Assembly (NCBI GenBank): GCA_022592445.1
Contig: JABYQR010000069.1
Location: 62,001-126,000 of the forward strand
Source: Cytidiella melzeri
Taxonomy: Eukaryota > Basidiomycota > Agaricomycetes > Polyporales > Irpicaceae
Direction of reading: 5' to 3'
Length of the DNA: 64,000 nt
The notes beneath the pieces are model-generated. The model worked only from the letters and a program-made list of their open reading frames with translations, had not been told where the DNA came from and made no database searches. Positions within the stretch are counted from its first letter, which is position 1, and every line of letters begins with the position of its first letter. Position numbers and translations under genes: made by a program. Of this stretch, positions 7,265 through 58,190 are shown in pieces.

Positions 7265-7497
7265 ATGGGCATTTTATAACGGGGACACCGTTGATAGGCA
7301 ACTTGATCTGGGATAAAGTGACTGTACTACAAATGATAAGTTTGGTTGCAGGAAAACAAGCCATACATTGATGACGGTAGTCACCAATGGTGGCAAGGGG
7401 CTTCATATATCTTATCATGAATCTCGTGCAGTGTTTACTGCTGATGACAGAAAATTGCTTGCTCAAGAAATGAAGGGCTTGAAATCCTGTTGAGGTA

Positions 7498-8195
7498 TAA
7501 ACTGCCTCATCTCCATTGAAACTGCCACAGGCTGTGTTCTGATTGTAACTCCTGCTCATAGAGCCACTAGTGGTTGTGAAACTGTGTGAAAGGATCAAAG
7601 GCAGTGCTCTGTGGTGATGCAACCATGTCCTGTTGATGTCTGAACTGCCTCAGCCCAACTAGAACTGCCACAGGCTGTGCTCTGATTGTAATTCCTCCTT
7701 AGAGAGCAACTAATGGCTGTGAAATTTTGTGAACCAATTGAATGCAGCGCTGGCTGCTGATGAAACCATGTCTAGCTGATGTCTCCATTGCCTCACCCCC
7801 ATCAGAGCTGCCACAGGCTATGTTCTGATTGTAACCCCTGCTTATAGAGCAACTGGTGGTTGTGAAACTGTATGGAAGAATCAAAGGCAGTGCTCTATGG
7901 TGATGCAACCACGGCCTGTTGATGTCTGGACTGCCTCAGCCCCATCAGAACTGCCACAGGCTATGTTCTAATTCTAACTCCTCCTGAGAGAGCAACTAAT
8001 GGTTGTAAAACTTTGTGCAACAATCCAATGCAGTGCTTGCTGCTGATGCAGCCATGTACTGTTGATGTCTGAACTGCCTCACCCCATTGGAACTGCCACA
8101 GGCTGTGTTCTGATTGTAACTCCTGCCTAGAAAGCAACTAACAGTTGTGAAACTTTGTGAAACAATCAGATACAGTACTCACTACTAATGCAGCC
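7498..8195. repeat. Tandem repeat, about 140 bp unit, left arm (about 5 units)
   Basis: Units share AACTGCCACAGGCTGTGTTC, GATTGTAACTCCTGC and GTTGATGTCTGAACTGCCTC. The unit start recurs at about 7640, 7783, 7930 and 8070. Short open frames in the array are shadows of the repeat. This array is the inverted counterpart of the longer one at 10050-11650. Confidence 0.8.
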
Positions 8196-34803: not shown

Positions 34804-35745
34804 TCAGTCCTTGAAGAACGACCTCATGTAGGTCATGTACTCTTCGTCGTTCTTGGATCCGTACTTGGCCTTCACGAAACCTCTCGCATCATCACCAATC
34901 CAGTACCTCAGCCTGTCTGTACCATCCGTCACAGCCCCGTAGATCGTGCTTGCGACGTCCTGAGAGGTCGTCGCGGCTGCACCGATCATCTTCTTGAAGC
35001 TCTCGCTTGTCTTCTTCAAGAACTCGTCGTAGTCGTGCAAGCCAAGCTCCGCCGTCGACGGGGGCATCTCCGCAGCGTAGCGCTGCACGAAGTTGTTGCC
35101 GGTGATGCCACCGTGAGGGATGACGGTTTTTACGAAGATGTTCTGGGAGGCGCACTCGTACGAGAGGGACTCGGTGAAGCCTTCGAGCGCGTACTTTGAG
35201 GCAGAGTACATGGTAGAGATGGGGAGTGCCCAGGAACCAGTCCCAGAGGAGATGTTGACGATGCCGCCGCTCTTATTGGCACGGAAGTGGGGGAGAATGA
35301 CGCGAGTCACGTCCATGACACCTGTTTAACAGAGTAAGTCAGCCATTTCTGGTTCGGTTCTAGAGACGTCAAGCCCACATTGCAGTCAAGAAAGATGCTC
35401 ACCAAAGACGTTCACTTCGAACTGCGCCCTTGCCTTCTCGCGCGAGATTGCCTCGAACAGCCCATTCTGTCCGTACCCAGCGTTGTTCACCAAAACATCA
35501 ATCTTTCCGAACTTCGAGATACCTTCCTTGACGGCTGGCTCAATGGACTCGAAATCCGAGACGTCAAGGCGGGTCACAAGGATGCGTTCTTGGGGTGCGA
35601 GCTGTTTCAGCTCAGCGGGCGCCTTGGCCGGGTTTCTCATCGTGGCGACAACGTTCCAACCCTTCGAGTGGAAGAGCTGAGCGGCGGCCAAGCCGATACC
35701 AGAAGAGGTACCGGTAATGAGGATGGTTTTAGCTGCGGCAGCCAT
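34804..35745 (-). CDS. Short-chain dehydrogenase/reductase (classical SDR)
   Basis: NAD(P)-dependent oxidoreductase acting on an alcohol or ketone. Exons 35745-35403 and 35321-34804 join to 286 residues. Seen: TILITGTSSGIG (cofactor loop, residues about 7-18), VLVNNAGYGQNG (structural NNAG), VNISSGTGSW with the catalytic Ser, and MYSASKYALEG with the Tyr-x3-Lys pair. No signal peptide, so cytosolic. Length fits classical SDRs. The substrate is not visible. It is transcribed away from the P450 at 36568 with about 0.8 kb between, and is the left member of the proposed terpenoid cluster; a role oxidising a terpenoid alcohol is inferred from context only. Confidence 0.92.
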
Positions 35746-36567
35746 TACTGTTGTTTTTGCAGATGGGCGGTCGGGTTACAAAAGCGATAAGTGATCGATA
35801 TCGTGGTCAGTACCTTTATATGTTTCGAACACTCATGGACCTTGACTAAGATTGCTTCGAGAGTAATGGCCAATGAATCAGTCCTTGTCCATGTCGTCGC
35901 GCCGGCACACATGACACGATTTTTCGTTGACGTCTTCAGAACTCGGATTCGCAGCAGGTGGAACGGCTGCCATGCCTTGAGAGGGCAACCACGAAGTGAG
36001 CTTTGCCGCCCATATGGGAATATACCGACGACAGTCAATACGTACTGATGCATCAACTATAGGCACGGGCACAGCTCCCAAATCGCGATGCCGTGGATAC
36101 GAGGGAGCGGTGTAATGGAGGGCTTTGCTGGCTCATGTCGAGGAGACGCCCGCCAGCTGCTTCTTCGCGCCTACAACCCCTCGGCTATGTCTTCTCTCTC
36201 ACCGCTACAAAATTGAGAACATTTCAAGACGCTCAAGAGGCGTCCTAACCCGGATTCGTATCTGATAGAACGGCGTTGGCACGTATTGAGACGTCTTTGA
36301 TATTTGCCGACGACGGGAATTGTCTCTCGCGTCAATTCTGGTTCCCCTTCTACCGCCGGATATCTCGACGCTGTAGCGCTGGCGTATCCGGGGTTTCTGC
36401 AATCAAAGTGGACTATCGTATGGCGGTGCGCAGCTGCGCTAAACAAGAAGCTCTTGAGGTTTTCTGATGCCAGCCTACTCTCAAGAGCACCATCTCGCGG
36501 CGGTGCAGTGACCACCGGCAGCTTCGCGTATCCCTTGGCCTTCCTCTTCCATCGATCCACACTTGCA
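35746..36567. promoter_or_regulatory. Divergent promoter region between SDR and P450-1
   Basis: 822 bp between two genes read in opposite directions. Frames within it (for example 36614-36171 minus) overlap the P450 start and show no domain, so they are discounted. No clear regulator site was identified. Confidence 0.5.
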
Positions 36568-38841
36568 ATGTCAATGCTATCATACGCCCCATGGTTACTG
36601 TGCGCTGTGCCCATAGCCTATGTCATCGCCGCGCGACCCAAGGGCAAGCTGCCACCGGGACCCAAACCTCTGCCACTCTTGGGAAACGTCTTTGACGTCC
36701 CGTCCGATGCCGCTTGGAAGGTGTTTCAGCAATGGGGCAAGAAATACGGTGAGCGTCGGCTAGGCTGCACTAGCGTCCTTTAACTTACAGCAGGCGCCTT
36801 TCATGCAGGCGACTTGATCTATCTGGAGACGTTCGGAAAGACTATGGTTGTCATCAATTCGGCCGCCGTGGCATTCGAATTGCTCGACAAACGAAGCTCG
36901 ATATACTCTTACAGGCCACAGTTCACCATGGCAAACGAAGTGTAAGTGGCTGTGTCACCCTACCATATTCCTACGTTCTGAGGATGTTTTAGAATTGGTT
37001 GGGTGCGCATATGACGCCATCTCTACTTGGAAAAAGTTCTTTTGGTTGATCGTCTCGTTAGAAATTCTCGCTGACGAGTATGGACTATGGCGAGAAGTCC
37101 AAAAGACAGCGAAAATACATGCAGTCTTACTTCCAAAAGGGCCGTCTGCAAGATTACTACGGCATCCAGCTGCGAGAAACACGCCAGATGTTGCATGAAA
37201 TGTTAACCAATCCGAAGTCATACCGCAACCACATTCGACGGTATGGTCGTATGCTTCATCAGATTATGCTTACAAGCGTCTTACGACTGTACCGCATAGC
37301 ATGGCGGCAGGTGTTACGATGATGATTGCGTACGGCCACAGAGTTGAGTCTGACGATGACGAGTTTATCAAACTCGCAGACAAGGGTGTCGCTACCATCG
37401 AAGCCGCCGGCGCGATTGGTGCCCATATAGTAGATTTCGTCCCTTGGCGTGAGTACGCCTTTATTCAGAGGTTTACTATGTTATTGACCCGTCCTTCAGT
37501 TCGTTTCATCCCTGACTGGTTCCCTGGCGCGAGTATCAAGAGTGTGCCTCCAGGGACCAAAGAGAATCTACAGGCGTTCATCAATATTCCCTTTGAACAA
37601 GTCAAGAAGCAAATGGTGAGTGTGGATAGTCAATTCGGGATAGTGTTCTGTCTTATCTGTCTTATCAAGGCCGAAGGGACTGCCACGCCTTGCTACACAA
37701 CGAAAATACTGGAAGAAACCAAGGGCACGGATGACGAAGGTGCTCGGGGCACTGCTGCCCTTGTCTATTCTGGTGAGTTAATTTTTAGGTCGACGATAGC
37801 ATATATTGAGGAAGTGTCTGTCTCGTAGGTGGTCTTGACACAGTAAGCTGGTATACTACGAACGCTACCGTCTCTAATATGATTTGCTACAGACTCTGTC
37901 ATCGATGATGACGGCGTTCACGATGATTGTTGCGAATCCCATCGTGCAAGCGCGGATTCAGGCAGAGATGGATCTCGTGATTGGCAGGGATAGATTGCCC
38001 GACTTTTCGGATAAAGTGCGTTTGCCTTATCTGCAATGCGTGATACTTGAGGTATTGCGGTGCGTGCGCATGTCACCTGGTATCATATGGGTTACTGAGT
38101 ATATCTGAACTCTAACAGATGGGGTGCAGCGACTCCAGTTGGTAAGCGGTGACTGACAGCTATACCACCGACGAGCTATGAGATGACCATTCCCTGGGAT
38201 ACTAGGTACGCCGCACCGCGTGTCGCAAGATGACACGTACGAAGGATACCTGATACCGGCCAACAGCACCATCATGGCTAACCAATGGTTAGTCTCCTAT
38301 ACTTTGTTCATCTTCTTGAGTCATTAGTTGGCATATCTAGGGCGATGCTACACGACGAACGTGTATACCCTGATCCTTCTCGTTTCAATCCGGACCGATT
38401 CCTGACAGGCGAAGGTCGCACACCTCAGAACGATCCCAGGGACGTTGCCTTTGGCTTCGGTCGGCGGTGAATACGCTTCACTACTATCTAACGACGGTCG
38501 ACTTAACTCACGATTTGTTGCGTTTGGTAGTATCTGCCCAGGCAAAGACCTCGCCGAGAACACACTTTGGATTGCTGTGGCGTCGATCTGTTATGCGTTC
38601 AAGATCACGTCCACCCTCGACGAGAACGGTGTGCCGATGCCGATAGACCTCGAATATCGAGAGCATGGAGTGAGGTAGGCGCACTCGTCATTGAGACGCG
38701 GGTTTGACGGTGACGTTGTTGCTGATGAAATTTGATCATCGTGTTTTTATCATGAATAGGCACCCTAAACCGTTCACGTGCGACATTGTACCAAGAAACG
38801 AAACCTCCGTGGACTTGATTCGTGCGGCGTTTGATGCCTGA
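36568..38841 (+). CDS. Cytochrome P450 monooxygenase 1 (14 exons)
   Basis: Haem-thiolate oxygenase, membrane-anchored in the ER. Exons: 36568-36748, 36809-36941, 36993-37002, 37062-37240, 37300-37448, 37500-37615, 37670-37772, 37829-37842, 37893-38059, 38119-38141, 38206-38287, 38341-38466, 38531-38674, 38760-38841; together 502 residues. Seen: N-terminal anchor (PWLLCAVPIAYVIA), hinge KLPPGPKPLPLLGN, HIRRMAAGVTMMIAYG, I-helix GGLDTTLSS, EVLRW (ExxR), FNPDRF, and the haem loop FGFGRRICPGK with its Cys. Two exons are only 10 and 14 nt; both are needed to keep GW and the I-helix motif. It resembles the large basidiomycete group annotated as O-methylsterigmatocystin oxidoreductase-like. Substrate inferred to be the cluster terpene. 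Confidence 0.9.
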
Positions 38842-39863
38842 GCATGAGTATGACTGGGTTTGGGGCTTCACTGCCAGGCTGCGAGCGTATCCTCGGAATA
38901 TTGGTCAGACTCGGCAGTTGCTCGATTGTCTTCATGGTGGCTTCTACTGTCTTTCGAATGACCAATATGTTGTTCCGCGCCGATGACGAAGTGTTCGGGG
39001 AAATGTGTCGAATTGGAAACCATCTGGTATGCGTTTGAGTTCAAGGGTACGTTCAAGTTTTTGTTCTGGCTATCGCTTGAAGCGTCATGAAACATGAAGC
39101 ATGTCGAAGCAATCGCCGTTGAACCTCCGACGAATCCGTAAGTTCAAGCGAAGATGTTCAAAAATCACATCTCCTCGGGTGTTCTCTCCTGCGGTACTAC
39201 GGCTTAGATGATCATGACAGTAGTAAGACCGGTGTCAGAGGCGTACTGACTTTTATGGCGATGCGATTATTACTTGTCCTGCAGAAAATCTCCACAATTG
39301 AACGCGAGCGCAACTGCACCCGCTGTGCAGCCACAAAGCGTTCAAATACCAAATATGGAATTAGCCCGACGCCTGCCGCGTGGCGCAGTGCTCTCTCCGT
39401 GAACACTCATGGCGACCAGTAGCTCTTTTTATAACGGCACACCTGATGCTACCAGACCACTCTAGTATGCAAGTTGCCTGTCTTGCGTCTGGTTGCGCGC
39501 GATCTATCCATTCAAACTGTTGTTCGTCAAGGACCAACGTCTGTCGTCTACTACTGCCGCGTTTGAACCTCCACAACCCGACTCTTTCGTATCCAGCTGT
39601 GGAACATTTCGAAGGTGCAATGCGAGCGTGGCACGGAAGCATAGACTGACGCACTAGCTGTTTGCCTACCCGCTCAGTAGTTCATCATGGGGGAACCGGA
39701 ATGCCACCTACTGGCATGTCCGTGTTGAACACGGAGATGGCGTAAGATGCACTTCATCACAAGATGCAGATGCAAGTGAGTATCATTGCTCTCTAATCCA
39801 ATAACAAAAGTCCATTCGCTAACTCTATACATTGCCCACGTTCGTGACAGTTGTTCTACCATT
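38842..39863. other. Intergenic region between convergent P450-1 and terpene synthase
   Basis: About 1 kb separating two 3' ends. Several overlapping short frames on both strands (39361-39654) show no domain or family pattern. No gene supported. Confidence 0.5.
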
Positions 39864-41221
39864 CTACATCTCATCAACCAGCGGGACGATAACGTCTTCT
39901 TTGTGGAGATCAGTGGCCTGTTTCCTCTTGGGCAGAAGCGGAACATGACGAGACTTTTGGATTTCGAGGCCCTTGCTGCCGAAATACCTCCCACTCTCAA
40001 AATTCCAGCAATCGTTGCAGCGCGGCCAGTTGGCCAGGTGCTCGATGTAAACCGCGACTTGATCGTCAACTTCCTTACCCCAAGAAGGAACCCTCTTGAG
40101 ACCGTCGAGGAATTTTGCCTCAGTCTCCTCGTGGTACTTGACCACCCATTTCATGGCCTCCGGAAGAGGGAGGTCGAATTGATGCATAACAATCGTAAGA
40201 ATGTTGTGGCGATCGTCTCCAACTGCCTGCTCCTTGTTATAGGAAGCAATGTCCTGTCGGCAAGGGGTAAGTCAATCTGCTTCTTCGCCGTATCTTTAGA
40301 AATCAACATACGTTATCTAATATGATCAGATCAGCGATCAAATATTCCAACTCCTTGATGACTGGATGGTAGAACGCATAGTCCGGGATGCTCAGGTGGA
40401 GTTCGCCAGGCACGTACGAAGGCCGGGCACCGATGTTCTGTCGGCGGGTATGCATGTAGGTCTCAACCGTGCGGAACGTATCATTGTCTCTATCTCCGGC
40501 TTGGACCACGACGCTTTCCAAGTAATCTGTGAATGCCTCAACCATATGGCGTGCTGCTTCGGGAGTGGCAGTCCTGCTGCCGCGCTCCCAGAATCTGCGT
40601 GAGATTGTGAGTAATTGCGCTGATGCTGGTTTGTTGAGCTCACTGACTGTCTAGTGATTTCGCCGAGGATGATTTCTCCTTCGGGACGAGGCTTGTGCGG
40701 GTTATGGAGCGCATCAATGACCACGTCGATCATTTCGCGGACGACGGGCATCGGCTCGACGTCTGTGTACTCATCTACCACAAAGAAGACCTAATAGGAC
40801 AATTTAGCGTGTAGCCGTTTCACTCGCTATCGTCCACTAACGTTCATCAAGTCGATGCTATAGATACCAACAAAGATACGTAAGTAGACTTCAAGTGGTC
40901 GGAGTATTGTCACTAACCCTGTGCGCAGATGCTCTCTGCTAATCGTTGGATATGCGAGGGATGCAAGACGTCCTGTCGCAAGTCATGGTTAGCTCCCATC
41001 GTATTTTTCTGCACAGTCCTCTTACCGAAGTCGCATTTGTCATATGCGTATTGAGAACGTTCGTTGAACGGCTTGAAAGACTTGAACCAGGCATTCGACT
41101 CGCGTGTCACTTCCTCGTAATACGGGTTGATGGCTCTGGGCCAGGGCCAGTTCTTCATCGTTTCGGGAAGGTAGAGCATCTGGGGAGAAGACTGGGATTC
41201 TGAAGATGAAGACGAAGACAT
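39864..41221 (-). CDS. Sesquiterpene synthase (class I terpene cyclase)
   Basis: Class I cyclase: Mg2+-dependent ionisation and cyclisation of farnesyl diphosphate to a sesquiterpene, cytosolic. Exons 41221-41026, 40972-40918, 40857-40842, 40790-40648, 40594-40312 and 40253-39864 join to 360 residues, normal for fungal enzymes. Seen: [14 protein letters not shown] at the start, the Asp-rich motif DEYTD, GEITRQFWERGS, the NSE triad across an intron join ([11 protein letters not shown]), GDDRHNIL, and [10 protein letters not shown] with the Arg-Tyr pair. All metal ligands are present. By overall pattern it fits the basidiomycete group with delta-6-protoilludene synthases, from recollection and not a tree. 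A TATA-like box (about 41277-41269) lies about 50 bp before the start. Divergent from P450-2. Confidence 0.93.
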
Positions 41222-42311
41222 GGTGAGTGGAGAAGGGTGACTGTTGTGCGTTGAAACGCGGTCGAGCCCTATTTATGCGTCAAATTTCAGCGATGCTGAC
41301 TTGAGAACCGCTTTCCAGTGATGTTCTCACCAGCACCGTCGCCTAGTCTATGAAATTCCCTGAAGCGCTCAACCCGGTGTCACCGTCGGATGCTCGTATC
41401 TTCGAAGCGACGAGTGATCCTGTCTTTGGTTATTATGGTAATTCAATCATATTTCTCCTCGCGTTCTGAAAGTGGACATGTCCAGATATGTCCTGTTGCA
41501 ATCGGTTCTAACCATCTCGACAATAGCACATCACGATAGTACATGTCTTCATGGACACTTGGGTGTATGTTGACAATGTTTGTCGCTGCAAATGGTACGA
41601 GGTCACATATTCTACAATATCTGCGCAGCGCTAGTACTAACACACCGGTTGAACGATCAGGGATCGCCATCTACCTAGTTGACCAAGGCAAATTACTCTG
41701 AGGGGATCTACAGCTACAGTGACGCGTAGCCGCTTGTACGTGTGCATGCGCTTTGCCAAACATTGCCCCAAATAGGCTCGCGACCGCGATATCTTGGCTG
41801 CCGCGTCTATGCTAGCCGGTGCCCCCGCCCATTCTCCTCACCCGAACGCCTGCGTGCTGACGTCGGGACTACGAGTGACATGTGCGACATTCAGCGAAGC
41901 AGCACCGTTAGGTGCGACATTGTCTTCTTGTGATGTCCCTGTTAATTTTGATGCAGACTAAGCCTTGCAGCTCAGCTTTTCCCCATGTAGCGGCTGACGC
42001 GCCTTCGTCAGGGGTGCCAGACATCAATCTCGTTGCACGCTAGCCATACAGCTATCCTTACGTGGGTCTGCGTCAAAGCGCTTCGACAGCCATTGTACAT
42101 ATCCCGGCAGCGGTTGAACATATCCCGACGACGGTCTTTCCATCTAAGTCAGTTCCAAACCAACACATCGCGGTTGTGGAAAAAATAGTGCGCAAGATTT
42201 GCGGTCTGGCACCACTTGTGGGTCTCGTATTTCCTTCCCACCACAAAGTACCAATCTTAAATAGTGTGGCTCATCACTGTGAATCGCTGTGCAGACGATC
42301 CCTTCCTCATC
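41222..42311. promoter_or_regulatory. Divergent promoter region, terpene synthase / P450-2
   Basis: 1090 bp shared by two genes read outward. TATA-like elements sit near each start: CATAAATAGG (minus, about 41277-41268) and TTAAATAG (plus, about 42256-42263). No conserved transcription-factor site could be assigned. A shared control region would co-express cyclase and oxygenase. Confidence 0.6.
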
Positions 42312-44614
42312 ATGATCTCTTCTACCTACGTCGCCGCTGCCCTCGTTCTTGCGTATGCGGTATACCGCTTGAGTCGCATTGGCACGCGAGAAGGCTTCCT
42401 GCCTCCCGGACCACCGACTGTGCCGATCTTGGGCAACCTGCACATCTTCCCCAAGGCCTGGGCATATCTAAAGTCGGCACATCCACTACTCCTTGTTCTA
42501 TACCTCAGCCTTTTGACGTCTTCTCAGATTTACAGAATGGTCCCGTCAATACGGCGATTGCTACAGCTTGAAGATCGGCTCTGGAACCATGGTGGTTATC
42601 TCGTCAGCAAAAGCCTTCAATGAGATTATCGACAAGAATTCCAACATCACCGCTGACCGACCTCCGAATTACTTTGCTGATCAAGTCACCAGTGGCGGTC
42701 TGAACATGGTTTTGTTAGTCGTCCGTTATCATTGACAGATTGAGCTCTAATACTGATGGGGATTGTAGGGCTAGATACGGTGTGTGCAGTGTCAAAAGAA
42801 CATTAGCCTCTTCGACCTTATCTTTGATCCCGACTAGGTGACAAGTGGCGCTCTCTGAGGCGAGGCGCACATGAGGTACTCAACCTTACCGCGGCAAAGA
42901 CACACAGGCCACTGCAAGATTCGGAAAGCGCGCAGCTCATGTACGAGTTTCTTACAACTCCCGAAGTACGTCGCGTTCTTTTGCTTTTGCTGTCTTACTC
43001 AACCGCCGATCCTTCTGTGATCTGCGCTCTCTGTAGAAAGCGTTCACATCCGTGCAGCGCTTTGCTTCGTCTGTGATCTTGTCCGTCGTGTTCGGGAAGC
43101 GCGCGCCTCAGTTTACCACAAAGGAGGTTACCGCGTTTTTCCACGTCCAACACATCTGGGAATATCTTCTCTTCCCCGGTTCGTTCGCGCCAGTCGACCA
43201 CCTGCCGTTCCTCAAGTATTTCCCCGAGCCGCTCGCCAAATGGAAGCCGGTCGTGCGCGAGGTCCGAGATTTGCAGCGCGAGCTCTACTTTGGTCTGTTG
43301 GAAGAGACAGAGAGGCGAAAGGAAGACAACGGCTGCTATATGGAGACTATTCTCGCGAGGTCGCAGGAATGGGGCCTGGATCGTGAGATGGTTGGGTAAG
43401 AATTCAAAGAATTCTCGCTTCTACCGCGCCTTTTTATCAAACTGTACTGAATTGTGTGTTGCCGTTGACTAGGTACCTCGGCGGCGTGTTGATGGAGGCC
43501 GGCTCGGACACGACGTCCTCCTATCTGAACTCGCTCATTCTCGGAATTATCGCCTTCCCGGAATGTCAGAAGAAGGCGCACGAGGAGCTGGACAGAGTCG
43601 TCGGCCATGATCGCGCGCCAGAGTTTGATGACCTCGAGAACTTGCCGTATATTCAAGCCATCACTAAAGAAACTCACCGATTTAGGCCGAACGCCCCTCT
43701 AATCCCCCGCTCGGCAACGGAGGATCTCTTCGTATGTCGCGAACAATTTTGCATCTTTTAGGATTTATCTCTCACACGTCTGTCAACGCCATAGTACAAT
43801 GGGTACAAGATTCCCAAAGGTACCGACATCATCGCCAACATGTGTAAGAATTCCCTGCGGATCCGATGGTATTGGGTTGTGCATGACTGACGGACGCCTT
43901 CATCATTATAGGGGGTATCTTCCATGACCCAGATGTCTATGAAAACCCCGAATGGTTCTGGCCGGACAGGTACATGAAGTCGGACGTAGGAACCAAGACG
44001 AAGGATGTCCCAGGACAGAGGAACGATATGGCTTTCGGCGGAGGACGGGTGAGCAGGCTTCCTGAACACCCTCGCCCTCTCATCTTGGCCGCTGATCATG
44101 AAAAATTCTTTTGTTGCAGCGTGTCTGTGCCGGTATTCATGTTGCCAAATATTCTCTGGTGAGGTTTTGCCCCCCTGCCATGTTCGTCATCCGCATCTGA
44201 TGGTGACTGACAACGTTCTTCACACGACAACAGGCCGTTGTGGCGATGAACCTGCTGTGGGCCTTCGAGTTCAGTCCTGCTCGCGACGAGAAAAGCCAGG
44301 AGATCAAGCCCGACATCTGGAACTACGCGCAGGTAAAAGTTTCAGCTTGTCCTTTTTCATTCATGACAAGAGCTCATATCATCCCGCTCTATCGGCGAAT
44401 TATTGTCTTTCTTTGTATTATACAGGCACTGGGTAGCGCACCGAACCCATTCCAATGCACGATCAAGCCTCGCAGCGCACACCATGCCGAGATGGTCCGC
44501 AAGCGGTTCGTGGACGCCACGCCACATTTACAGGCGTTCGAGCACGAGCTTAGCGAGGAGGACAGGATCTTCTTGACGAAAATGCGGGCAGAGGCCACAT
44601 CAAAGCGTTTCTAG
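42312..44614 (+). CDS. Cytochrome P450 monooxygenase 2 (11 exons)
   Basis: ER-anchored haem-thiolate oxygenase. Exons: 42312-42472, 42528-42713, 42769-42779, 42838-42965, 43037-43395, 43473-43731, 43795-43843, 43912-44048, 44120-44158, 44234-44332, 44426-44614; 538 residues. Seen: anchor [29 protein letters not shown]-helix [17 protein letters not shown] (ExxR), WFWPDRYM, and [15 protein letters not shown] with the haem-ligand Cys. Exon 3 is 11 nt and restores LARYGDKWR. It differs clearly from P450-1 in sequence and intron positions, so the two are not a recent tandem duplicate. Divergently paired with the terpene synthase, which supports a role in oxidising its product; the chemistry is not readable. 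Confidence 0.92.
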
Positions 44615-47600
44615 AGACGTCGATTGTGATTTTTTTTTCGCTCAGATACTGTCATTGTATTGATTAGAGTTGTTTTGTGCTGTGCTCTGCGTCCTTTGTT
44701 CAACTGCGCGACTGTAGGGGTGTTGGCTTATTGTGATGATTATGTCCGCCTTAAGAGAAAAAACACTGTTGTCTGAATGCTGCGCGGTGTTGAACATTGA
44801 TTGATATCTATCATGTTGGTGGTGCAGTTCAACCGCCCGGCGATTGTATTGACAGCCTTCGCAGCTTGACTTATATCTGCAAGGTCGACCGAATATCCTG
44901 CCATGCGTCGCTCGGAATAGGTGATACGGCATTTACAATAGAATAAGGCACAAGAACCCCCCGGCGGATTCGGGAAGTCGGGACATGCGGGAGTGCCACC
45001 GGGTTCGTAAGGAGGGTGATTCCTGCGGTTAAGTTTGCAGATCTCATCGTGTGAAACGCTCAGCCCGGAGATGATCTACTCACGATGTGGACAGTCACAC
45101 AACATATATTGCTGTGCAACCGCGGGGTTGCTGTGCAGTCACGGTTAGTGGGCCGGCAAATATACCAATGATGACAGGCAGTGACATCGGTCGGATACTG
45201 TTATTAGTGGGTTATGACCGAAGGGCCCAAATGTTGATGCCTGTGCGGATGTAAGTAGGGCAAAGCACCAAGCAGGTTTTTATTTTTTTTTAATTCAACT
45301 ATATATTCAGCGCGGCGTAAGACCAGAGCGCGTACAACTTATACAAGTGCGTAAAGATGGGTGACACCTCACCAAGCAGGTTATGCCAAGAGGAAACACT
45401 TTCAGTCCTGTTGACAGATGAGAGATGAGATTTGAAAAAGTGCTCAGAGTTGAGTCGGAGGCGGTTAGCTTGCTGAACAGCACCTTGATGCCAGCGGCTC
45501 GGTCGCAGCTGCGGAACGATATTGCATATGCATAAGCGACAGCGAGCTTAGGAGAGGATTCGGGGGGTATCCCCAGTGGTGCGAGACCCGCGTCGAACAG
45601 CGAACACTGCAATTCATATTGAGGCCATTTACTAACGACTAAACGGTGGAACACTCGATTAACACTGACTCACTTGGAGAAACAAGAACCGGGCCCTGTT
45701 TAGCAAAGTCTGGGGTACTGATGCCGATACAACAACCGGCGGCGGAACGTATACTCGTTACACCAGCGCATGGTACGCAACGTCTGCAAGTGACTTTGTA
45801 GGCCTGTGATCACTGATCACCGCTAACATGGGCCCTGCAAGCCTGTGACATGCAGTTCAGTGATTCGCGCATAGCGATGCAGAGACTAGATGGCTACATG
45901 GTGCAATGCTTACCTTTGCGTACAACTTGAGCGAGTGAAGCTAGTAGTGGTCCCTGAGACGGTAGCATCCATGCGAGACTGACTTGCTGCTGCGCGAGTA
46001 TACGTACAGCCCGTTATCAGACGCTGCGTCCATCATGGCACAAGTCTTGGAGCTTGGCCAAAGCCAATGCTGTAAAAGACCAACACTGTGTCGACCAATT
46101 ACATAAGTGACGGTGTTCTCCGCGCCTCGGAGCGCGCAACAACCGCTCGCTGGCGCTTCCTAGACTCTCTCCTAGACTCTCATGTCGACAGTCGCAAAAC
46201 GACGAACACTCACTATATGCTTCTCCGAGTCATAGGAGATTAGTGGGAGATTCATTGAGATAGAAACACCCTGAAAGTTGGCAGATGTTAGTACATATCA
46301 TGCCTTCGATGCCTTGCACGTACGTGTAAGTTCCCGTGTACACCCCAAAGCCTTCAGAAATATGACATGGAACGCATATACCCGTCAGTTTTGACATTTT
46401 CTCCAGATTGTCGAGGAGACCTGGACTCAGTGGCGGTGTGTTACTCTCCATTTTCTTTTTTGATTTCGCCTAACATCATGATTCAGCAGGTCACCGCTGC
46501 AGTCATTCAGCTGTTGGCGATCACAAATCGTAATCATACTCTTTGTCGCTGCCACAGACGTCAATACGTCCCTGAAGGATTGCGTGTGCATTACCAGATA
46601 ACAAAACTCACGAGGGCTTGCCTCGAGTATGGGGAAAGTCTCGACCAGTGTAATGTTTACTCGACGGTGGTACGTACGACCGCGTTAGCTTCTTTCAGAT
46701 AGCACTCACCGCATATACCCGTGACCGTGTTCTCACCCATTCAAATACCCTCAGTAAGCAACATGTATCGGCCCTTGCACTAGGATGTGCCTTGGTATAT
46801 TCCGACTAAGGTGGCAAGGGCTTATACTTATCGGCTTCCCTGCCAGTGTGGGTCTTTGGTCTGCTTGCAGCGCGCGGCACCAACGTTGATACGCACCCGA
46901 TCTAGTGGCCGGACACTGTAATAGTGCCGAGGAAGTCTCAGTATGAGCGCACAGTCAGCCACAAGCGCTGCAGAAACGTCGTAATCACCAAGAATAGAAT
47001 AAATTGGCGAGCAATGGAGTCATATGGTGCGCGTTTTCTCCCGCTCCTTGTAAGATTGACTTGATTCCCCTTCTTTGCAGAGAATGATAACACTTTGTGT
47101 GCCGATGTATTGGACCTCAGCCCACGGGTTGCTGATGATCTCAAATATTTTTACGGCCCCGAGTACAGCCAATTCCAACAGTATGGGCGGGTTGTGAAAA
47201 GTTACACGTAGTCCGACCGTGACGGAGTACGTCAATCATCGATCGGAGTTACTTTGCATCGCAGTGCCGTGCTGCCTTTGGCTGGGCGAGGGCAGTCGGC
47301 GACTTGGAATTGCCACCAGTCCGCCTCAGTGTAATTCACACGCGCCCGCCCATCATTACGGAAGTAAGCCCAGCAGGATTAATCGCTCATTCATTGTCTC
47401 TCGTGCACCCGACGCGTATACTCACAGATGATGCGCCCCGGGAGCATCGTCGCCTCATGCGTGCGCCCGAACCACAGCACGCGAACCGCCGCAGGATGCG
47501 CGCCGTCTCCCGCATTGTGGGCTCATCAGTCGACAACCGCCTCCAATATCTCGCATCAGGCTTTGAGCGCGAAGCGTATCTGTCAGTTCCTCGGCAGACT

Positions 47601-47825
47601 GTTCAGGAAAGCGCTGATATCAATCGTCCGGGAATAGCGGTTGCAAGAGGCGTCGTGAGAGGCGACCGTAAATGATGATCGGACGACCCCTCCGGTGGCG
47701 GGATATATGTATGTATCTGCATCATGGGATGACTAGCAAGCTGCCGCACACGACCCCGACTAATAACAAGCAACCTGTTCAGAGCATACGCCAGCTGTGC
47801 CCATCAGCCCCCAAACTAACCCACC
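44615..47825. other. 3.2-kb gap inside the enzyme cluster, no firm gene
   Basis: No gene with a recognisable domain. A 115-codon minus-strand frame (45654-45307) and a short one at 46451-46230 with plausible splice sites could be relics or an unrecognised gene, but give no family pattern. The last 150 bp form the FAD-oxidase promoter, with TATA-like GATATATGTATG at about 47701-47712. Confidence 0.45.
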
Positions 47826-49922
47826 ATGCACTTCCGGTTAGCCGTCCTGCTTGGCCTCGCCCTCGTCACCTCCGTGTCCGCAAAAACCACGTGCAAGTGT
47901 CTACCTGGCGACTCTTGTTTCCCTCCGCAGTCACAATGGAACACGTTTGCAAAAGGGCTCAGCCAGCCTCTCATCTCAAATCAAAGACCCTTTGCCTCTG
48001 TCTGCTACAACTCGTCTTCGAACTTCAACGTTGCCGAGTGCGCCAGTCGGAGCGCCGTGCAGTTCGATCCGGAGTCTCTCATAGATGCTGGAAACACCGT
48101 CCAGCTCATCAACTTTCAGGACGAGCTCTTGTCGAACGGGACAATCCTCCAATGTCCGTTTGATCCTTTACCAGGCGTGGTGTGCTCTCAAGGTCGCGTC
48201 CCGGTGTACGCGATCAACGCGACTACCGTGGTGGATATTCAAAAGACCGTCGCCTTTGCCTCTCAGCATAATCTGCACTTGGTCGTTCGGAACACTGGGT
48301 AAGCAGCATTTGACGTGAACATGTATTCAGGCTTGTTTCTCATGTGAAGGCTTGCGTGTGTGCGAACAGTCATGAGCTTCTGGGTCGTGCATTCGGTGTC
48401 GGTTCCGTCGAGCTCTTGGTTCATCATATGCAGGCAGTCAACTTTACCGACTCTTTCGTTCCGACCAACGCACCTTTATCAACGCCTGGGCAGTTTGGTA
48501 TGTACTCCATACGCCATATGTTGCTGGGTTATCTCTGAATGTCGTGTATAGCTGTCACCATTCAGCCTGGTGTCCAGTGGGGAACGCTCTACGAGCTTGC
48601 GGATCAGCACAACCGTTCGATTGCTGGAGGATTTAGTGTGGGTGGTACTGTCGGCGCTGGAGCTGGATGGCCCGTCGGTGGCGGTCACAGTATTCTTTCG
48701 CCGTTCTTCGGTCTCGGTACGCAACCTTACGTTTCTGGATTTATCCGTCTCGAGAGCTTGAACGTCGTCAATCATCTAGGGGTTGACAACATCTTGCAGT
48801 ACACAGTAGTGCTTCCAAATGCCACTCTTGTGACCGCAAACGCCTTCACGAACACAGACCTCTTCTGGGCTTTGCGTGGCGGCGGAGCGCCCAGTTTCGG
48901 TGTAGTGACATCCGTTACGCATAGGACGCACCCCAATGTCCCCTTCACCGCTGCATTCTATGCAGCTCAAGCAGATTCGGATGATTCCTTCCTCAGTCTC
49001 ATCACACTTTGGAACCAACATCACAATGGCATGTCAGACTCGGGATGGGGAGGCGTCTGGCCTTACTTCTCGAACCAACTGTACCTGACCCTCGTCTCCC
49101 CGGGAACTCCACCGACCAACCCCGCCGCACTGACTGCTCTCAACTCGTTCTACAACGCATCGATGCAGGTTGAGGGTGTGAACGTGTCTTTGGCAATCAC
49201 GCATCCTTACCCATCCTTCCAAGCGTTCGTCCACGACAATCTCGATGACACCTCTTTGGGCTTCGGTCTCAACTTTTCCAATTTCCATGTCTCGGGGCAG
49301 AGGGCGTATCTGTCGTCGTGGCTCCTCCCGCGGAACCTCACGGCGCCGGAGAACGCTGCAGTGCTCGCAAAGGCCTTCGTGAGCGTGCCTGCGGGTACTC
49401 CTTAGTGAGCAACCCTTCTCACACTAAATCCTCAAGTTTCCGACTTGCTGACGAGTGAACATTTTATTATTATGCCAGCATGGTCGGAGGCGGAGTTGTC
49501 TCTACAGTCCCCGGTAATGCGACAGCTGTGACCCCTGCTTGGAGAGGCGCGATCGCGGACATGACGATCATCGTCAGTTTCAACGAGACGACGAACGCGA
49601 GCGATTATCTCGCCGCCCAGCAAGCTACTCATGCCCAGATCGCTCCTTTCCAGCAGTTGGCACCTATTCCGCTGGGTGGACAGTATCTCAACGAGGTGGG
49701 TTCAGTGTCCTTGCTTTGTTTTGGTGGAAAATATAGCCTGTTGTGCTGATTCGTATTTAGGCTGATGTGTTAGAGAGCGACTGGCAGGAAGCGCAGTGGG
49801 GATCGAATTACGCGAGGTTGTTGAGCATCAAGAAGGAGGTCGATCCGAAGGATTTGCTTGTTGTCTTTCACGGTGTGAACTCGGAGGGGTGGGACGATGA
49901 GATTCTTTGCAAGACTGTATGA
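47826..49922 (+). CDS. Secreted FAD-linked oxidase, berberine-bridge-enzyme type
   Basis: Flavoenzyme of the VAO/BBE family that oxidises alcohols, sugars or natural products with O2. Exons 47826-48298, 48370-48497, 48552-48716, 48780-49404, 49479-49695 and 49761-49922 join to 589 residues. Seen: signal peptide (LAVLLGLALVTSVSA), VVRNTGHELLGR spanning an intron with the His expected to carry FAD, VGGGHS and FGLGVDNILQY in the FAD domain, LFWALRGGG, and the C-terminal BBE segment WGSNYARLLSIKKEVDP. The 48717-48779 intron is inferred because removing it restores the family motif. Secreted, several N-glycosylation sequons. It converges with the GMC gene; tailoring of an exported terpenoid is inferred. 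Confidence 0.92.
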
Positions 49923-50590
49923 GTTCGCTGCTGCCATTGCGATCCAACAACTTGAAAAGGTTTGGGATGGACACAAAGTGGGGTTTAATCGAGGGATGAG
50001 TTCTTGGAGTGGCGTTGTTGGCGAAGAGCGATGGCTGTTTTATACGTAACTTACGTGTTTTGAACCATGCAATTGGACAGGTTTACCCCCCGAATATCTA
50101 ATGAGCACGATGAAATCTGTCTGTAACAGTCTCGAGTGACCACACTGCCCGCCAGTAATTACAACGTTCAAGTTGTCAGTAGTATTGGAAGCGAATCATT
50201 ATAACATGGATGAGCCTTCAAATGTATTCTGTCAAAGGTCTGTTCAGGCTTCAAGCTGCTGCTCGTGGCGGAGTGGATTGGCAGTAGTCGTTGTAAGTTA
50301 GCATCCGGAGTCCGAGTTGATCTGCATTGTTCGGACCACAGGTAGTCTTTTAGGCGATATGATCTGGGTTGCATACGTGAACTCCTGCTCATGACTTCAT
50401 GGGTCTCATATGCCAGGTATACATCGGAAAGACCAAACACGTCGGAGTGTTATGATTTCGATTCGATAAGTAGCAACGACCGGCGTATGAAGTGGTGTAT
50501 CGCTCAATAAAAGTTCGCAGATTCATGTAACTGATAAACGACAACAAGAAACGCAAGACGGCTGCAGTAAGCATCCTGGACCTCATACTA
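49923..50590. other. Intergenic region between convergent oxidase genes
   Basis: 668 bp carrying both 3' flanks. No gene or repeat recognised. Confidence 0.55.
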
Positions 50591-53458
50591 CTAATGCCCC
50601 CTCAGAATAATATCTGCGGCCTAAATCAAAGCATCAGCAACCCGACAATTCCGGACGTTGCCGCCTCCCAAGAGAAAACAGCCTCACCTTTTCTCCTATC
50701 GCGTAGACAGTCTGCTGCAAGTTCGCGCCAACGATGATAGGCATAACACTTGCGTCTACGACTCTGAGGTTCGTGGTATGGTAGACCTTGAGATCAGCGC
50801 CGACGACGCCTCCGTCTTCCAGTGGGGCCATGGCGGCTGTTCCAGCAGGGTGCGAGGAAGACTAGACACGAACATCAGTCGGTGTTCAAAGTAGCGTGTG
50901 AGGCGAGATAGTCTTACCAAAGCATTGGACCTGATGTAGCTGAAAGGAAAAAAGAGAAAGAATGAAGCGTTAGATAGATGCAAACATTGTCGGTTTGGGG
51001 TGTATAGGCACGTACTTGATAAGATCTTCGTCTGACTGGATGTTTTCGGCCGGAGCGTTCCTCCTTGCAATGATATCCGACAGAGGGGAAATGTGCTGCA
51101 GCTTCAGCAGTAGCTTGACGCCACTAAGAACAGCTTGAACGTCTAGCGGCGCGCATAGTAAGACGGTGTGTAGCCGTTCGAAACGTCACGACGAGCTTAC
51201 CAAAGTCATTGTCAAAGTAACGTTCATCAATGACTGGATGCGCCAATGGATCTGTAGTATTGATATGCTACAAATCCGAACATCAGATTCTGCAGTACAA
51301 GGCTTGAACGCAAAGTCGGTTTGACCTACCACTGTACCACGCGCCCATGGATGCTGCAGACACAGTATATCAAAAATTGCCGTGTGCCAAAACAAGAAAC
51401 ATAGATAAAGTGAGGAAAGGGACAAACCAAGGTGCCGCAGTATGCGGAGAAGTAGCTAGAATTCGGCATAATCGGGGCGATTTGACCCCCGTTGTGGAGA
51501 ATCAGCTGGACCTCTGGGACCACTGCTTGATTAATCCATTGGCGGTGGATGGCGTGCTGAAGCGGCTGAAGAGTCCCGTTTCTGACAGGTACTTTATCGA
51601 ATATGGCTGCCATGGTCTGTACTTCTGTGGAATTGAGGTAGAATTGGAATGGGAGCCAGGTCAAAGTCGAGTCAAAGGCGGCAAGCAACCCAGTTCCGTT
51701 GGCGTTGCTAGGTAGGAAAGGTTTGATGAGAAGGCCTCAACTCCTTGCGGTGAAGTAACTCACTAAAGGGCAGTCTGCTCAGCGTCGTAGGTGGCATTGT
51801 TATGAAGAGCGTCTGAAGCATTGTCAGCGTGATGTAGGTCGCGTGTACCGCTGGAAACGCACCAAAAGTGAGGACACCTGGCTTGACTTCATATTCGACA
51901 CCAGAAAAGACGTGATCCTAGTGTGAACAGATGACTTTTGAGTATGTGCATATCCCCCTTGGCTTCCTAGCAATACGCACCTGAAGATTCTCACCCACTC
52001 CCGGAAGATCAATCAGGGTCGTCAAGTTCAGCGATTTGAGCAGAGTCGAGTTCCCAATACCTGTGAACGGTACTACGATAAAAACCGAACACGCTAGAAA
52101 ACAAGGTTTTACGCACCAGAAAGCTCAAGAAGCTGAGGCGTTTGTATTGAACCAGCAGATAAGATGATCTCTTTGCTCGCTGTCACGGTAAGCTGTGTCG
52201 AATTGACGACGAACTGGACGCCGGTTGCGGTATAAGAGCCACCTCTACCGTGAAGTAGGATCTTCGTGGCCTTCAATACAACTAGCACATCAGCGAATCC
52301 CCGCAACGAGCACTTACAAGATACTGACCTGAGCACCTGTTAGAACGATGAAGTTCTTTTGCGACTCGGACCGACAGTAGTACTGCGTAGCATAAGATCT
52401 GACTCCTCGCGTACGATCCAGAGATGACCTCGAGTTCAAAACGCCTGCTGCAGTACCGTTGTCCTGAAAAATGAGAATTAAATGCAGTTCAGTCACAGCT
52501 ACCAGGATGGATACATGGCGACATACGGCGTTGGGGTTGGTCGGTATCCCAAGGTTGTTCAAGGTCTCCACGAATGGGAAAACCGGGTCGGTATAGATGT
52601 CATTGTAAGACGACTGCTCACATCCGAATCTACGAGTGAGCAAAACTTTGCGCACTTGTACGATTTCACTAACCTGAATCGGACCTTCGAACCCGACATA
52701 ACGAGGGTCAAAGTCGGCCGTCGTCTCGTTAGCAGCGATGCCAGGGAAGGTGTTTGTCTGATTCCTTTGCGTGGTAGTGGTCCTTTTGAAGAACGGCAAG
52801 AAACCTTTGAAGGTCCAATCAAACGCTTTGGCGAAAGATGACCACGCGTCGTATTCTGGGCTCGATGCCCTGTTCCATGCGAGGAAGTGCAAGCCACTGG
52901 ACCCTCCGAGCATCTTTCCCCTATGAATATCTTCAGAAAACATGCCTCTGTCATACTGCAAAACGGGAAACATTACCTGGGAACAGGCATTTGTTTGCCA
53001 TTGAGTCCTGGCTGAGGGACCGATACGAACTCCCAATCGAAATTTGGGTTCCCAGCAGCAGCTCCAACATTAGCTGTACACCACGTTAGCCAACTCGAGA
53101 ACGTTCCGAGGAGTCATCGCAGCACTCGCCTGGTATGTCTATCAGGGGCTCCCTGGGATGATAGAGTCCCGCTTCAATCACCCCAACCTTGATAGAATGG
53201 TCATCTGCCAGTCTAGAATTCGACATGGCGGCATGAGCGGCTGTACAATCATGAGAATGGAAAGCTGCGTGCGTACCTGGATGCTAAGGCGAGGCCGGCG
53301 GTACCACCGCCTATTACCACGTAGTCAAACTTGGTAGCTGCAAACGCAGCAGGGGAGATTGACGGTGGTGAGCACGTCTTAGGATTTTGTGCAGCTGCGA
53401 ACTGCAGAAACGCGAAGAGCGTAACAGAGGATGTAAGCACAGTCGGGTGAAGCATCAT
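50591..53458 (-). CDS. Secreted GMC oxidoreductase (aryl-alcohol-oxidase-like), 17 exons
   Basis: FAD-dependent GMC enzyme that oxidises primary alcohols or sugars, giving H2O2. Exons: 53458-53277, 53212-53130, 53073-52977, 52947-52674, 52616-52527, 52463-52329, 52270-52117, 52060-51981, 51917-51863, 51812-51764, 51707-51428, 51353-51330, 51267-51201, 51142-51016, 50930-50918, 50861-50688, 50620-50591; 637 residues with the total in frame. Seen: signal peptide (LFAFLQFAAA), FDYVVIGGGTAGLALASR, GKMLGGSSGLHFLAWNR, EIILSAGSIQTPQLLELSG, SSSHPAGTAAM with the first active-site His, and LRVVDASVMPIIVGANLQQ where Asn holds the second site. One exon is 13 nt; one intron starts GC. TATTTAAG lies about 65 bp before the ATG. 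Confidence 0.93.
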
Positions 53459-57309: not shown

Positions 57310-58190
57310 CGAATAGCACTATAATAAAACCAAGACATGCTAGAAAGCGAGGTTTGCCAGTACCAGAAACTGCAGAGCGTATATATCACCAGCCGACAGG
57401 ATGATCTCTTTGCTCGCTGCCACGGTGAGCCGTGTCGAGTTAACCGGTCGCGGTGTCAGAGTCACCTTTACCGCGAAGCAGGATCTTCGCGGCCTCCAAT
57501 ATTACTCATACGTCAGTAAAATGACACAACCAGTACTACTGACGAGATACTGACCTGAACACCTGTCAAAATGAGGAAGCTCTTTTGCGACTCGGACCGA
57601 CGGTAGTACTGCGTGGCATATAATCTGACTCCTCGCGCACGATCCAGAGATCACCTCGAGCTTAGGACGCCTGCTGCAATACCGCTGTCATGAAAGCAGA
57701 AGTCCATTCGACCGCATTCGAGTCACAGTCATGAAGATCAATACTTCGCGACATAATCAGCATTCGAGTTGGTCAGTATGACGGGGTGTTTCCAAGATTG
57801 TAAGAGGACTGCTCGCATCCGAATCTCCGAGTCAGTAAAACCTCGCGCACCTTGTACAGCTCCACCAGCCTGGAACGGTCCTTCGAACACAACAAAACGA
57901 GGATCAAAGTAGACAGACGTTGGTTGGCATCGATACCAAGGAAGGCGTTCGTCTGATTCCTTTGCGTGGTAGTGTTCCTATCGAATAATGGCAGGAAGCC
58001 ATCGGAGGACCAGTCAAATGCAGACCAGGCGTCGGACCTGTTTGCTTTTACTGTAAGCTTGGTATACGAACTGAGCAAGCTGTCGGTTCGCTGACACCGC
58101 GTTTGCCAGAAATGAGCTATTCGCTTGGCGTCGCGCCAACCCAGCGCCCCGACAGCACTTGGCGCATCCGCAACGATAGACCTCCCACAC
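57310..58190 (-). pseudogene. Decayed partial duplicate of the cluster GMC oxidoreductase
   Basis: Pieces align in order with the gene at 50591-53458: 57380-57470 with 52150-52240 (exon 7), 57585-57680 with 52357-52455 (exon 6), 57780-58050 with 52590-52850 (exons 4-5; shared TTTTQRNQTN-like and RRFGCEQSSYN phrases). Beyond exon 4, the upstream flank of the true gene (53560-53695) is found at 58050-58190. Exons 1-3 are therefore missing and the flank is joined to exon 4. Frames are broken and the C-terminal half is absent, so it cannot encode an enzyme. Confidence 0.8.

Follow-up and report, generated by a model that had tools for sequence, protein, structure and literature searches.

A putative oxidised-sesquiterpenoid locus in Cytidiella melzeri: a synthase-P450 core and a possible oxidase module

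Described clusters and the locus of Cytidiella melzeri

Sesquiterpene synthase genes are abundant in mushrooms, and the cytochrome P450 enzymes (P450s) that act with them are hard to identify; in a screen of 184 P450s on Delta6-protoilludene, three were reported to be active, none of them adjoining a synthase gene (PMC6116744). The present study deals with six enzyme genes, including one sesquiterpene synthase gene and two P450 genes, located in a 64,000-nucleotide stretch of DNA (the window) from Cytidiella melzeri, which is part of a contig of 154,620 bp (C656) in a 49.7-Mb genome. With a probability of about 0.6, we read these genes as an oxidised-sesquiterpenoid biosynthetic locus consisting of a conserved core, namely the synthase and the first P450 (P450-1), and an added module, namely the second P450 (P450-2) and a VAO-type flavo-oxidase (VAO). 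The locus adds one more example to a type that is already known. In a literature search covering titles and the openings of abstracts, no publication was found on this synthase-P450-1 pair, nor any naming Cytidiella melzeri.

The locus resembles the melleolide/armillyl orsellinate cluster of Armillaria, where the protoilludene synthase Pro1 is accompanied by four P450s and a GMC oxidoreductase (PMC7778616). CYP-Arm1 from that cluster has 538 amino acids and 11 exons, as does P450-2, the likeness being one of size and exon count. The Armillaria cluster differs in that a methyltransferase is named there, whereas neither a VAO nor a short-chain dehydrogenase (SDR) is named in that account, and melleolides additionally require the polyketide synthase (PKS) ArmB (PMC7778616). 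In Irpex lacteus, a "cluster 2" is described in the text of one paper as comprising one sesquiterpene synthase, two P450s, and two oxidoreductases, while the table in the same paper gives it as PKS, in contradiction with the text (PMC11677564). In this species, a relative of the synthase and a relative of P450-1 share a contig, as they do in C. melzeri, but the relatives of P450-2 are located elsewhere. The tremulane synthase IlIS/Il4946 from this related genus is listed in clade III with iltremulanol A as its product (PMC10608071). In Postia placenta, CYP5344B1, CYP5348E1, and CYP5348J3 hydroxylate Delta6-protoilludene but are reported to lie apart from the synthase gene (PMC6116744); the Postia relative of P450-1 (P0256) shows 59% identity with it.

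The six intact genes occupy 18.7 kb (34804-53458 in the window), from the stop codon of the SDR gene to the start codon of the GMC gene; VAO and GMC are flavoenzymes (FAD stands for flavin adenine dinucleotide).

34804..35745, minus strand: SDR, a classical short-chain dehydrogenase, 286 aa, 2 exons (35745-35403, 35321-34804), Pfam adh_short 1.4e-47
35746..36567, no strand: intergenic region of 822 bp between the divergent SDR and P450-1 genes
36568..38841, plus strand: P450-1, 502 aa, 14 exons, Pfam p450 6.3e-70, heme motif FGFGRRICPG
39864..41221, minus strand: class I sesquiterpene synthase, 360 aa, 6 exons, Pfam Terpene_syn_C_2 1e-47
41222..42311, no strand: intergenic region of 1090 bp between the divergent synthase and P450-2 genes
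42312..44614, plus strand: P450-2, 538 aa, 11 exons, Pfam p450 1e-74, heme motif FGGGRRVCAG
44615..47825, no strand: gap of 3.2 kb between P450-2 and VAO
47826..49922, plus strand: VAO/BBE-like FAD oxidase, 589 aa, 6 exons, Pfam FAD_binding_4 5.6e-16 and BBE 8.1e-10
50591..53458, minus strand: GMC flavoenzyme, 630 aa, 17 exons, GMC_oxred_N 1.5e-29 and GMC_oxred_C 1.4e-31

The initial annotation had placed six enzyme genes in exactly this span, and Pfam confirms each of them; the two divergent pairs which it described (SDR/P450-1 and synthase/P450-2) are also present, with gaps of 822 and 1090 bp. In the order SDR (-), P450-1 (+), synthase (-), P450-2 (+), VAO (+), GMC (-), the successive gaps measure 822, 1022, 1090, 3211, and 668 bp. 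A six-frame Pfam scan of positions 44500-47903, spanning the largest gap, gave no domain above the curated cut-off, the only match being a sub-threshold Chol_subst-bind (14.7 versus 25 bits). The spliced models of all six genes were built by hand on splice sites and have no internal stop codons; 49 of their 50 introns are GT-AG and one is GC-AG. P450-1 is identical over its full length to the NCBI protein P0241 of C. melzeri (100%), and P450-2 shows 99% identity with P0121. The synthase is identical to the NCBI record P0001 at every position where both have residues; the P0001 model lacks the first 14 residues and 13 residues after the first exon, the latter occurring wholly or partly in three of the four other aligned rows. 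The SDR carries the motifs TGTSSGIG, NNAG, and YSASK. Both P450s have the heme-cysteine motif FxxGxRxCxG, the ExxR and (A/G)GxDT motifs, and a hydrophobic N-terminus. They had been called unrelated: two P450 genes are indeed present, but they belong to the same superfamily, with local matches at 21-46%. That the locus harbors no active pathway, its genes being intact yet silent or acting separately, is most improbable: a decayed GMC copy nearby (57.3-58.0 kb) and the synthase fragments on other contigs would fit such a state, but the six reading frames are open and none of the 50 modelled introns lacks usable splice sites.

The synthase and P450-1 in C. melzeri and other genomes

Linkage was assessed by taking contigs of equal size in the same species as one contig. 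Relatives of the synthase were drawn from the best 120 of 390 matches (108 with species and contig), and those of P450-1 from the best 120 of 2,025 matches, where the first 41 rows (37 of them with species and contig) form a group with at least 52% identity, apart from a single row (33%), the identity then falling to about 40%. The next 79 P450 rows (65 entered) were used as a control, and rows were counted in species other than C. melzeri that also hold a synthase match. Among the matches listed, members of the P450-1 group were found on a synthase contig in 16 of 23 rows (15 of 20 species), versus 1 of 23 rows in the case of the control P450s (Fisher p = 6.6e-6, the rows of one species being counted apart and hence not fully independent). 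The lone linked control row, from Gautieria (49% identity), may be a truncated member of the P450-1 group. Some of the linked contigs are megabases long (Phlebopus, Fomitiporia), which makes sharing less telling, and others measure 20-115 kb. The locus numbers of the two genes are g8990 and g8992 in Leucocoprinus, 3 and 4 apart in the two pairs of Tephrocybe (010511/010514 and 003610/003614), and 21 apart in Gymnopilus dilepis. Since co-location recurs in distant Agaricomycetes, it is very probable that the synthase and P450-1 share one pathway. The two-gene unit may have stayed together, or come together anew, in Agaricales, Boletales, Gloeophyllales, Hymenochaetales, and Polyporales.

The distances between the linked proteins were compared in a mirror-tree analysis on 17 pairs (the present one and 16 others), which gave a Spearman coefficient of 0.29, with 58 of 5000 permutations as high; this signal is weak, and several of the gene models are truncated. 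In a synthase tree of 75 rows (74 among the best 120 of 390 matches, plus the present synthase), the linked label, carried by 19 rows, needs 12 changes, the mean in shuffled labels being 17.0, and none of 500 shuffles gave a number as low. A single gain of the linkage without any loss is therefore ruled out, as 12 changes are required. The synthase of the ascomycete Oidiodendron maius (P0093) nests with Jaapia among the Agaricomycete sequences (support 97/86) and is a candidate for transfer between phyla.

The metal-binding motifs announced for the class I synthase are present: the Asp-rich motif D(D/E/N)xx(D/E) is DEYTD at residue 95 and the NSE motif NDxxSxxxE is NDIASYNKE at residue 231; an RY motif occurs at residue 320. 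Clade kinship was judged against solved structures alone, the nearest of which is the Delta6-protoilludene synthase 8h72 (E 2.7e-104, 352 bits), followed by 8gy0 (227 bits), 7ofl (168), and AcCop4 (145). The 8h72 entry is K435DRAFT_659367, the number of which is the same as that of Denbi1_659367, a protein placed in clade III (PMC10608071). This clade is described as 1,11-cyclising, with 50 members, nearly half of which give tricyclic products, and also includes pentalenene, sterpurene, and iltremulanol A (Irpex lacteus) synthases (PMC10608071); one main product is reported to be typical of such enzymes (PMC6116744, PMC9948225). Because its best solved relative is a Delta6-protoilludene synthase, 1,11-cyclisation of the clade III type is to be expected, and is likely to be the mode of action of the present enzyme. 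The skeleton formed can be tentatively proposed to be Delta6-protoilludene, with the same reserve another 1,11-derived type, while a tremulane is rather unlikely.

Six loci in the C. melzeri genome show full or near-full synthase matches (two on C457, and one each on C705, C656, C68, and C710), and the present one alone is flanked on either side by a P450 at no more than 4 kb; at the C710 locus, a P450 occurs at 11.5 kb. Five shorter matches on contigs absent from the P450 list (C190, C401, C162, C175, and C670) were left out of this comparison. Positions with at least two P450 loci within 4 kb amount to 0.13% of the genome, based on a list of 76 loci merged by eye, which is a lower bound. The two synthase-like genes on C457 (51552-54292) lie close together on opposite strands and are convergent. 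C190:214831-215028 and C401:133487-133684 are synthase fragments covering residues 134-201 (82% and 76% identical, respectively), no more synthase matches being present in the 10 kb examined around them; they are probable relics of duplication. The short matches C162:65261-65434, C175:32798-32956, and C670:7408-7566 correspond to residues 285-342 in the C-terminal part of the synthase (49-52% identical) and may be genes or relics. The nearest SDR paralogue by E-value (C379) has no match to the other cluster genes in the 10 kb examined there, nor has the nearest GMC paralogue by E-value (C335) in the 20 kb examined.

P450-2 and the flavoenzymes

The P450-2 and VAO genes seem to belong together. 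Apart from a weak one-exon match on C245, the genome contains one other full-length VAO match (C323:179845-181905), just upstream of which a P450-2 paralogue is located (175075-177169), with the same order and strand as in the window and at a distance of about 2.7 kb, compared with 3.2 kb in the window. Both full-length VAO matches of the genome thus stand downstream of a P450-2-type gene, and because the pair recurs on C323, we take P450-2 and VAO to be linked as a module. On C125, a further P450-2 paralogue, the third, is separated by about 1.5 kb from where the matches to a GMC gene of another subfamily begin, and P450-2-type genes adjoin a flavo-oxidase gene at all three of the sites found in this genome. 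The contigs involved in these comparisons measure 148,150 (C705), 237,199 (C168), 207,239 (C323), and 81,233 bp (C125). On C323, which was scanned with Pfam at 165-175 and 181-190 kb, the region 165001-190000 forms a second oxidative cluster with an old yellow enzyme gene, a P450 gene, and the P450-2 and VAO paralogues, RPAP1 lying beyond; at its left end there is a match to a reverse transcriptase and endonuclease of the LINE (long interspersed nuclear element) type.

The VAO gene product is closest among the solved structures to MtVAO615 (6f72, 2e-61) and MtVAO713 (6f74, 2.6e-56); the entry 6f74, entitled "Alcohol oxidase", was taken to be MtVAO713 because its His159 and Ser231 agree with the published description (PMC6017366). 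His159 in the present protein aligns with the FAD-linked histidine of both enzymes, and Ser229 aligns with Cys222 of MtVAO615, MtVAO713 also having a serine there (Ser231). The conserved histidine and the serine at the cysteine position constitute its likeness to MtVAO713, which is reported to hold its FAD by a single covalent link, to have a fairly open active site, and to show low activity on ricinoleic acid (PMC6017366). The protein had been labelled a secreted BBE-type FAD oxidase: the FAD_binding_4 and BBE domains and a likely signal peptide bear this out, but the bicovalent BBE type was rejected, since the second FAD-link position is occupied by Ser229 and not by a cysteine. It is likely to be a VAO-type oxidase with a predicted monocovalent histidyl FAD.

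Relatives of the GMC enzyme include aryl-alcohol oxidases, a putative glucose oxidase, and patulin synthase (8bxl, E 2.4e-54). Aryl-alcohol oxidases have a His-His catalytic pair; the corresponding positions here are His567 and Asn610, the latter aligning with a histidine of 7vkd, and the assignment to the aryl-alcohol oxidases was therefore rejected. As the initial annotation had suggested, both flavoenzymes show signs of secretion: their N-termini are hydrophobic and they contain 13 (VAO) and 12 (GMC) N-glycosylation sequons, versus 4.9 and 5.0 in shuffled sequences, whereas the other four proteins have 1-2 sequons versus 1.3-1.7. Both proteins are thus likely to carry a signal peptide, and with slightly less than even chances, judging from the N-termini and the sequons, the last oxidation might occur outside the cell. 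The patulin synthase PatE, a fungal GMC enzyme which is vacuolar or attached to the cell wall and performs the final oxidation of a metabolite (PMC7824139), offers by analogy a precedent in which an enzyme of this family completes a metabolite at the cell wall; PatE belongs to an ascomycete patulin pathway and is not the closest solved relative of the present enzyme, and the likeness is a working one rather than a pathway kinship.

Evidence for and against a joint pathway

The linkage of P450-2 was assessed on 37 of the 120 P450-2 rows listed, chosen from species present in the other lists or close to them. Among these entries, a P450-2 relative stands on the same contig as a P450-1 relative in 3 of 15 rows (3 of 7 species), and in Mycena olivaceomarginata P450-1, P450-2, and the synthase occur together on one 280-kb contig, the only such case among the matches listed. 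In Irpex rosettiformis, P450-2 sits on the contig of a P450-1 relative (72%).

Several observations weigh against assigning all these genes to one pathway. P450-2 and synthase relatives share a contig in 1 of the 27 rows entered. In Irpex lacteus, a member of the same family (Irpicaceae), a synthase and one P450-1 relative are on a 437-kb contig, a second P450-1 relative on one of 980 kb, and P450-2 on one of 593 kb; the three synthases of I. rosettiformis lie on a 908-kb contig, its P450-1 rows on contigs of 140 and 803 kb, and P450-2 on that of 803 kb. The 30 kb at C323:165-195 kb gave no match when queried with the present synthase. No P450 match was found within the 20 kb examined around the nearest synthase paralogue (C705), nor any synthase match in the 30 kb examined around the P450-1 paralogue on C168, which lies among other P450s. 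Even within the core, 7 of the 23 P450-1 rows have no synthase on the same contig among the matches listed. The scans at 30.0-34.8 and 54-64 kb in the window revealed no transporter or regulator gene, although short exons can escape such scans, and a search for promoter motifs of k = 7 to 10, covering both divergent intergenic regions in full and the 1 kb that precedes the VAO and the GMC gene, found no 8-mer common to the four upstream regions, 7-mers being at shuffle frequency. Lastly, kinship does not in itself settle the product of the synthase, because two synthases with 27% identity are reported to yield the same tremulane alcohol, iltremulanol A (PMC12864622).

These data leave some room, as an unlikely alternative, for two sets of chance neighbors: the synthase and P450-1 (perhaps with SDR) on the one hand, and on the other an oxidative pair, P450-2 and VAO (perhaps with GMC), acting on another substrate, such as wood extractives or lignin-related alcohols. 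The occurrence of the P450-2/VAO pair with an old yellow enzyme gene and a P450 gene but no synthase on C323, the GMC gene adjoining the third P450-2 paralogue on C125, and the rarity of the synthase linkage elsewhere (1/27) would be accounted for in this way. However, the synthase and P450-2 are divergent and have a 1.1-kb upstream region in common, the two P450 types are found on one contig in 3 of 7 species, in one case along with the synthase, and sites with two P450 loci within 4 kb make up 0.13% of the genome on the lower-bound list. P450-2 and VAO are, in our opinion, probable participants in the synthase/P450-1 pathway. The opposite idea is that related fungi preserve the complete set of six as one fixed pathway. 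It agrees with the compactness of the 18.7-kb block, which has an FtsJ methyltransferase gene on its left and a Pfam-poor stretch on its right, but is highly unlikely, both Irpex species having the synthase and P450-2 on separate contigs.

The joint pathway proposed in the initial annotation is hence upheld as regards the synthase and P450-1, which are co-located in distant Agaricomycetes, and is weakened as regards P450-2, which is mostly unlinked. It was foreseen there that relatives in which the synthase occurs without these neighbors would tell against a joint pathway: this is partly the case, because P450-2 and the synthase are on separate contigs in both Irpex lacteus and I. rosettiformis and no synthase was found in the 30 kb examined around the C323 pair. 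Given the unlinked paralogues, the Irpex layout, and the lack of a common promoter motif, our claim is limited to a firm two-gene core with plausible partners. For SDR and for GMC, the adjacency at the present locus gives an even chance of belonging to the pathway. The picture that emerges is of a widespread pair, cyclase and P450, to which a recurring module of oxidases has apparently been joined; SDR and GMC are possible partners. A single pathway of six steps is plausible and has partial support.

On its left side, the locus is bordered by an FtsJ-like methyltransferase gene, with minus-strand matches at about 34.07-32.80 kb; beyond this gene there is a reverse transcriptase of the copia type (RVT_2, at about 30.4-31.1 kb). 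On the right, the sole Pfam match at 54-64 kb is DUF6535 at the window edge. These edge scans (30.0-34.8 and 54-64 kb) overlooked a short GMC relic at 57346-58033 on the minus strand, 4 kb from the intact gene, which contains residues 145-331 in pieces; it is a decayed tandem duplicate (57.35-58.03 kb). Between positions 2001 and 14000, the guanine plus cytosine content is 0.38-0.43 in five of six 2-kb bins (0.53 in 6001-8000), versus 0.46-0.54 in the rest of the window, and this stretch probably consists of repeats.

As regards the reactions, the clade III-type synthase would close farnesyl diphosphate via the trans-humulyl cation, giving one main hydrocarbon or alcohol, and P450-1, probably anchored in the endoplasmic reticulum, would carry out the first hydroxylation. 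In the module, P450-2 would put in another oxygen and the VAO-type oxidase, likely to be secreted and with histidyl FAD, would use O2 to convert the resulting alcohol into a carbonyl. The SDR would probably form a ketone in the cytosol, and the GMC enzyme, also likely to be secreted, would oxidise a terminal alcohol. We propose this order of steps as an inference.

From a broader point of view, it is conceivable, albeit doubtful, that a synthase of clade III and a P450 dedicated to it are an ancient pair making one common early oxidised sesquiterpene, to which the lineages add differing tailoring modules, the module in Cytidiella being a P450 and a secreted flavo-oxidase that also serves a cyclase-free cluster. 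A P450 group accompanying one synthase subfamily in many genomes provides a direct and testable assignment of partners, and the presence of the P450-oxidase pair twice in one genome gives a hint as to how such pathways may be assembled.

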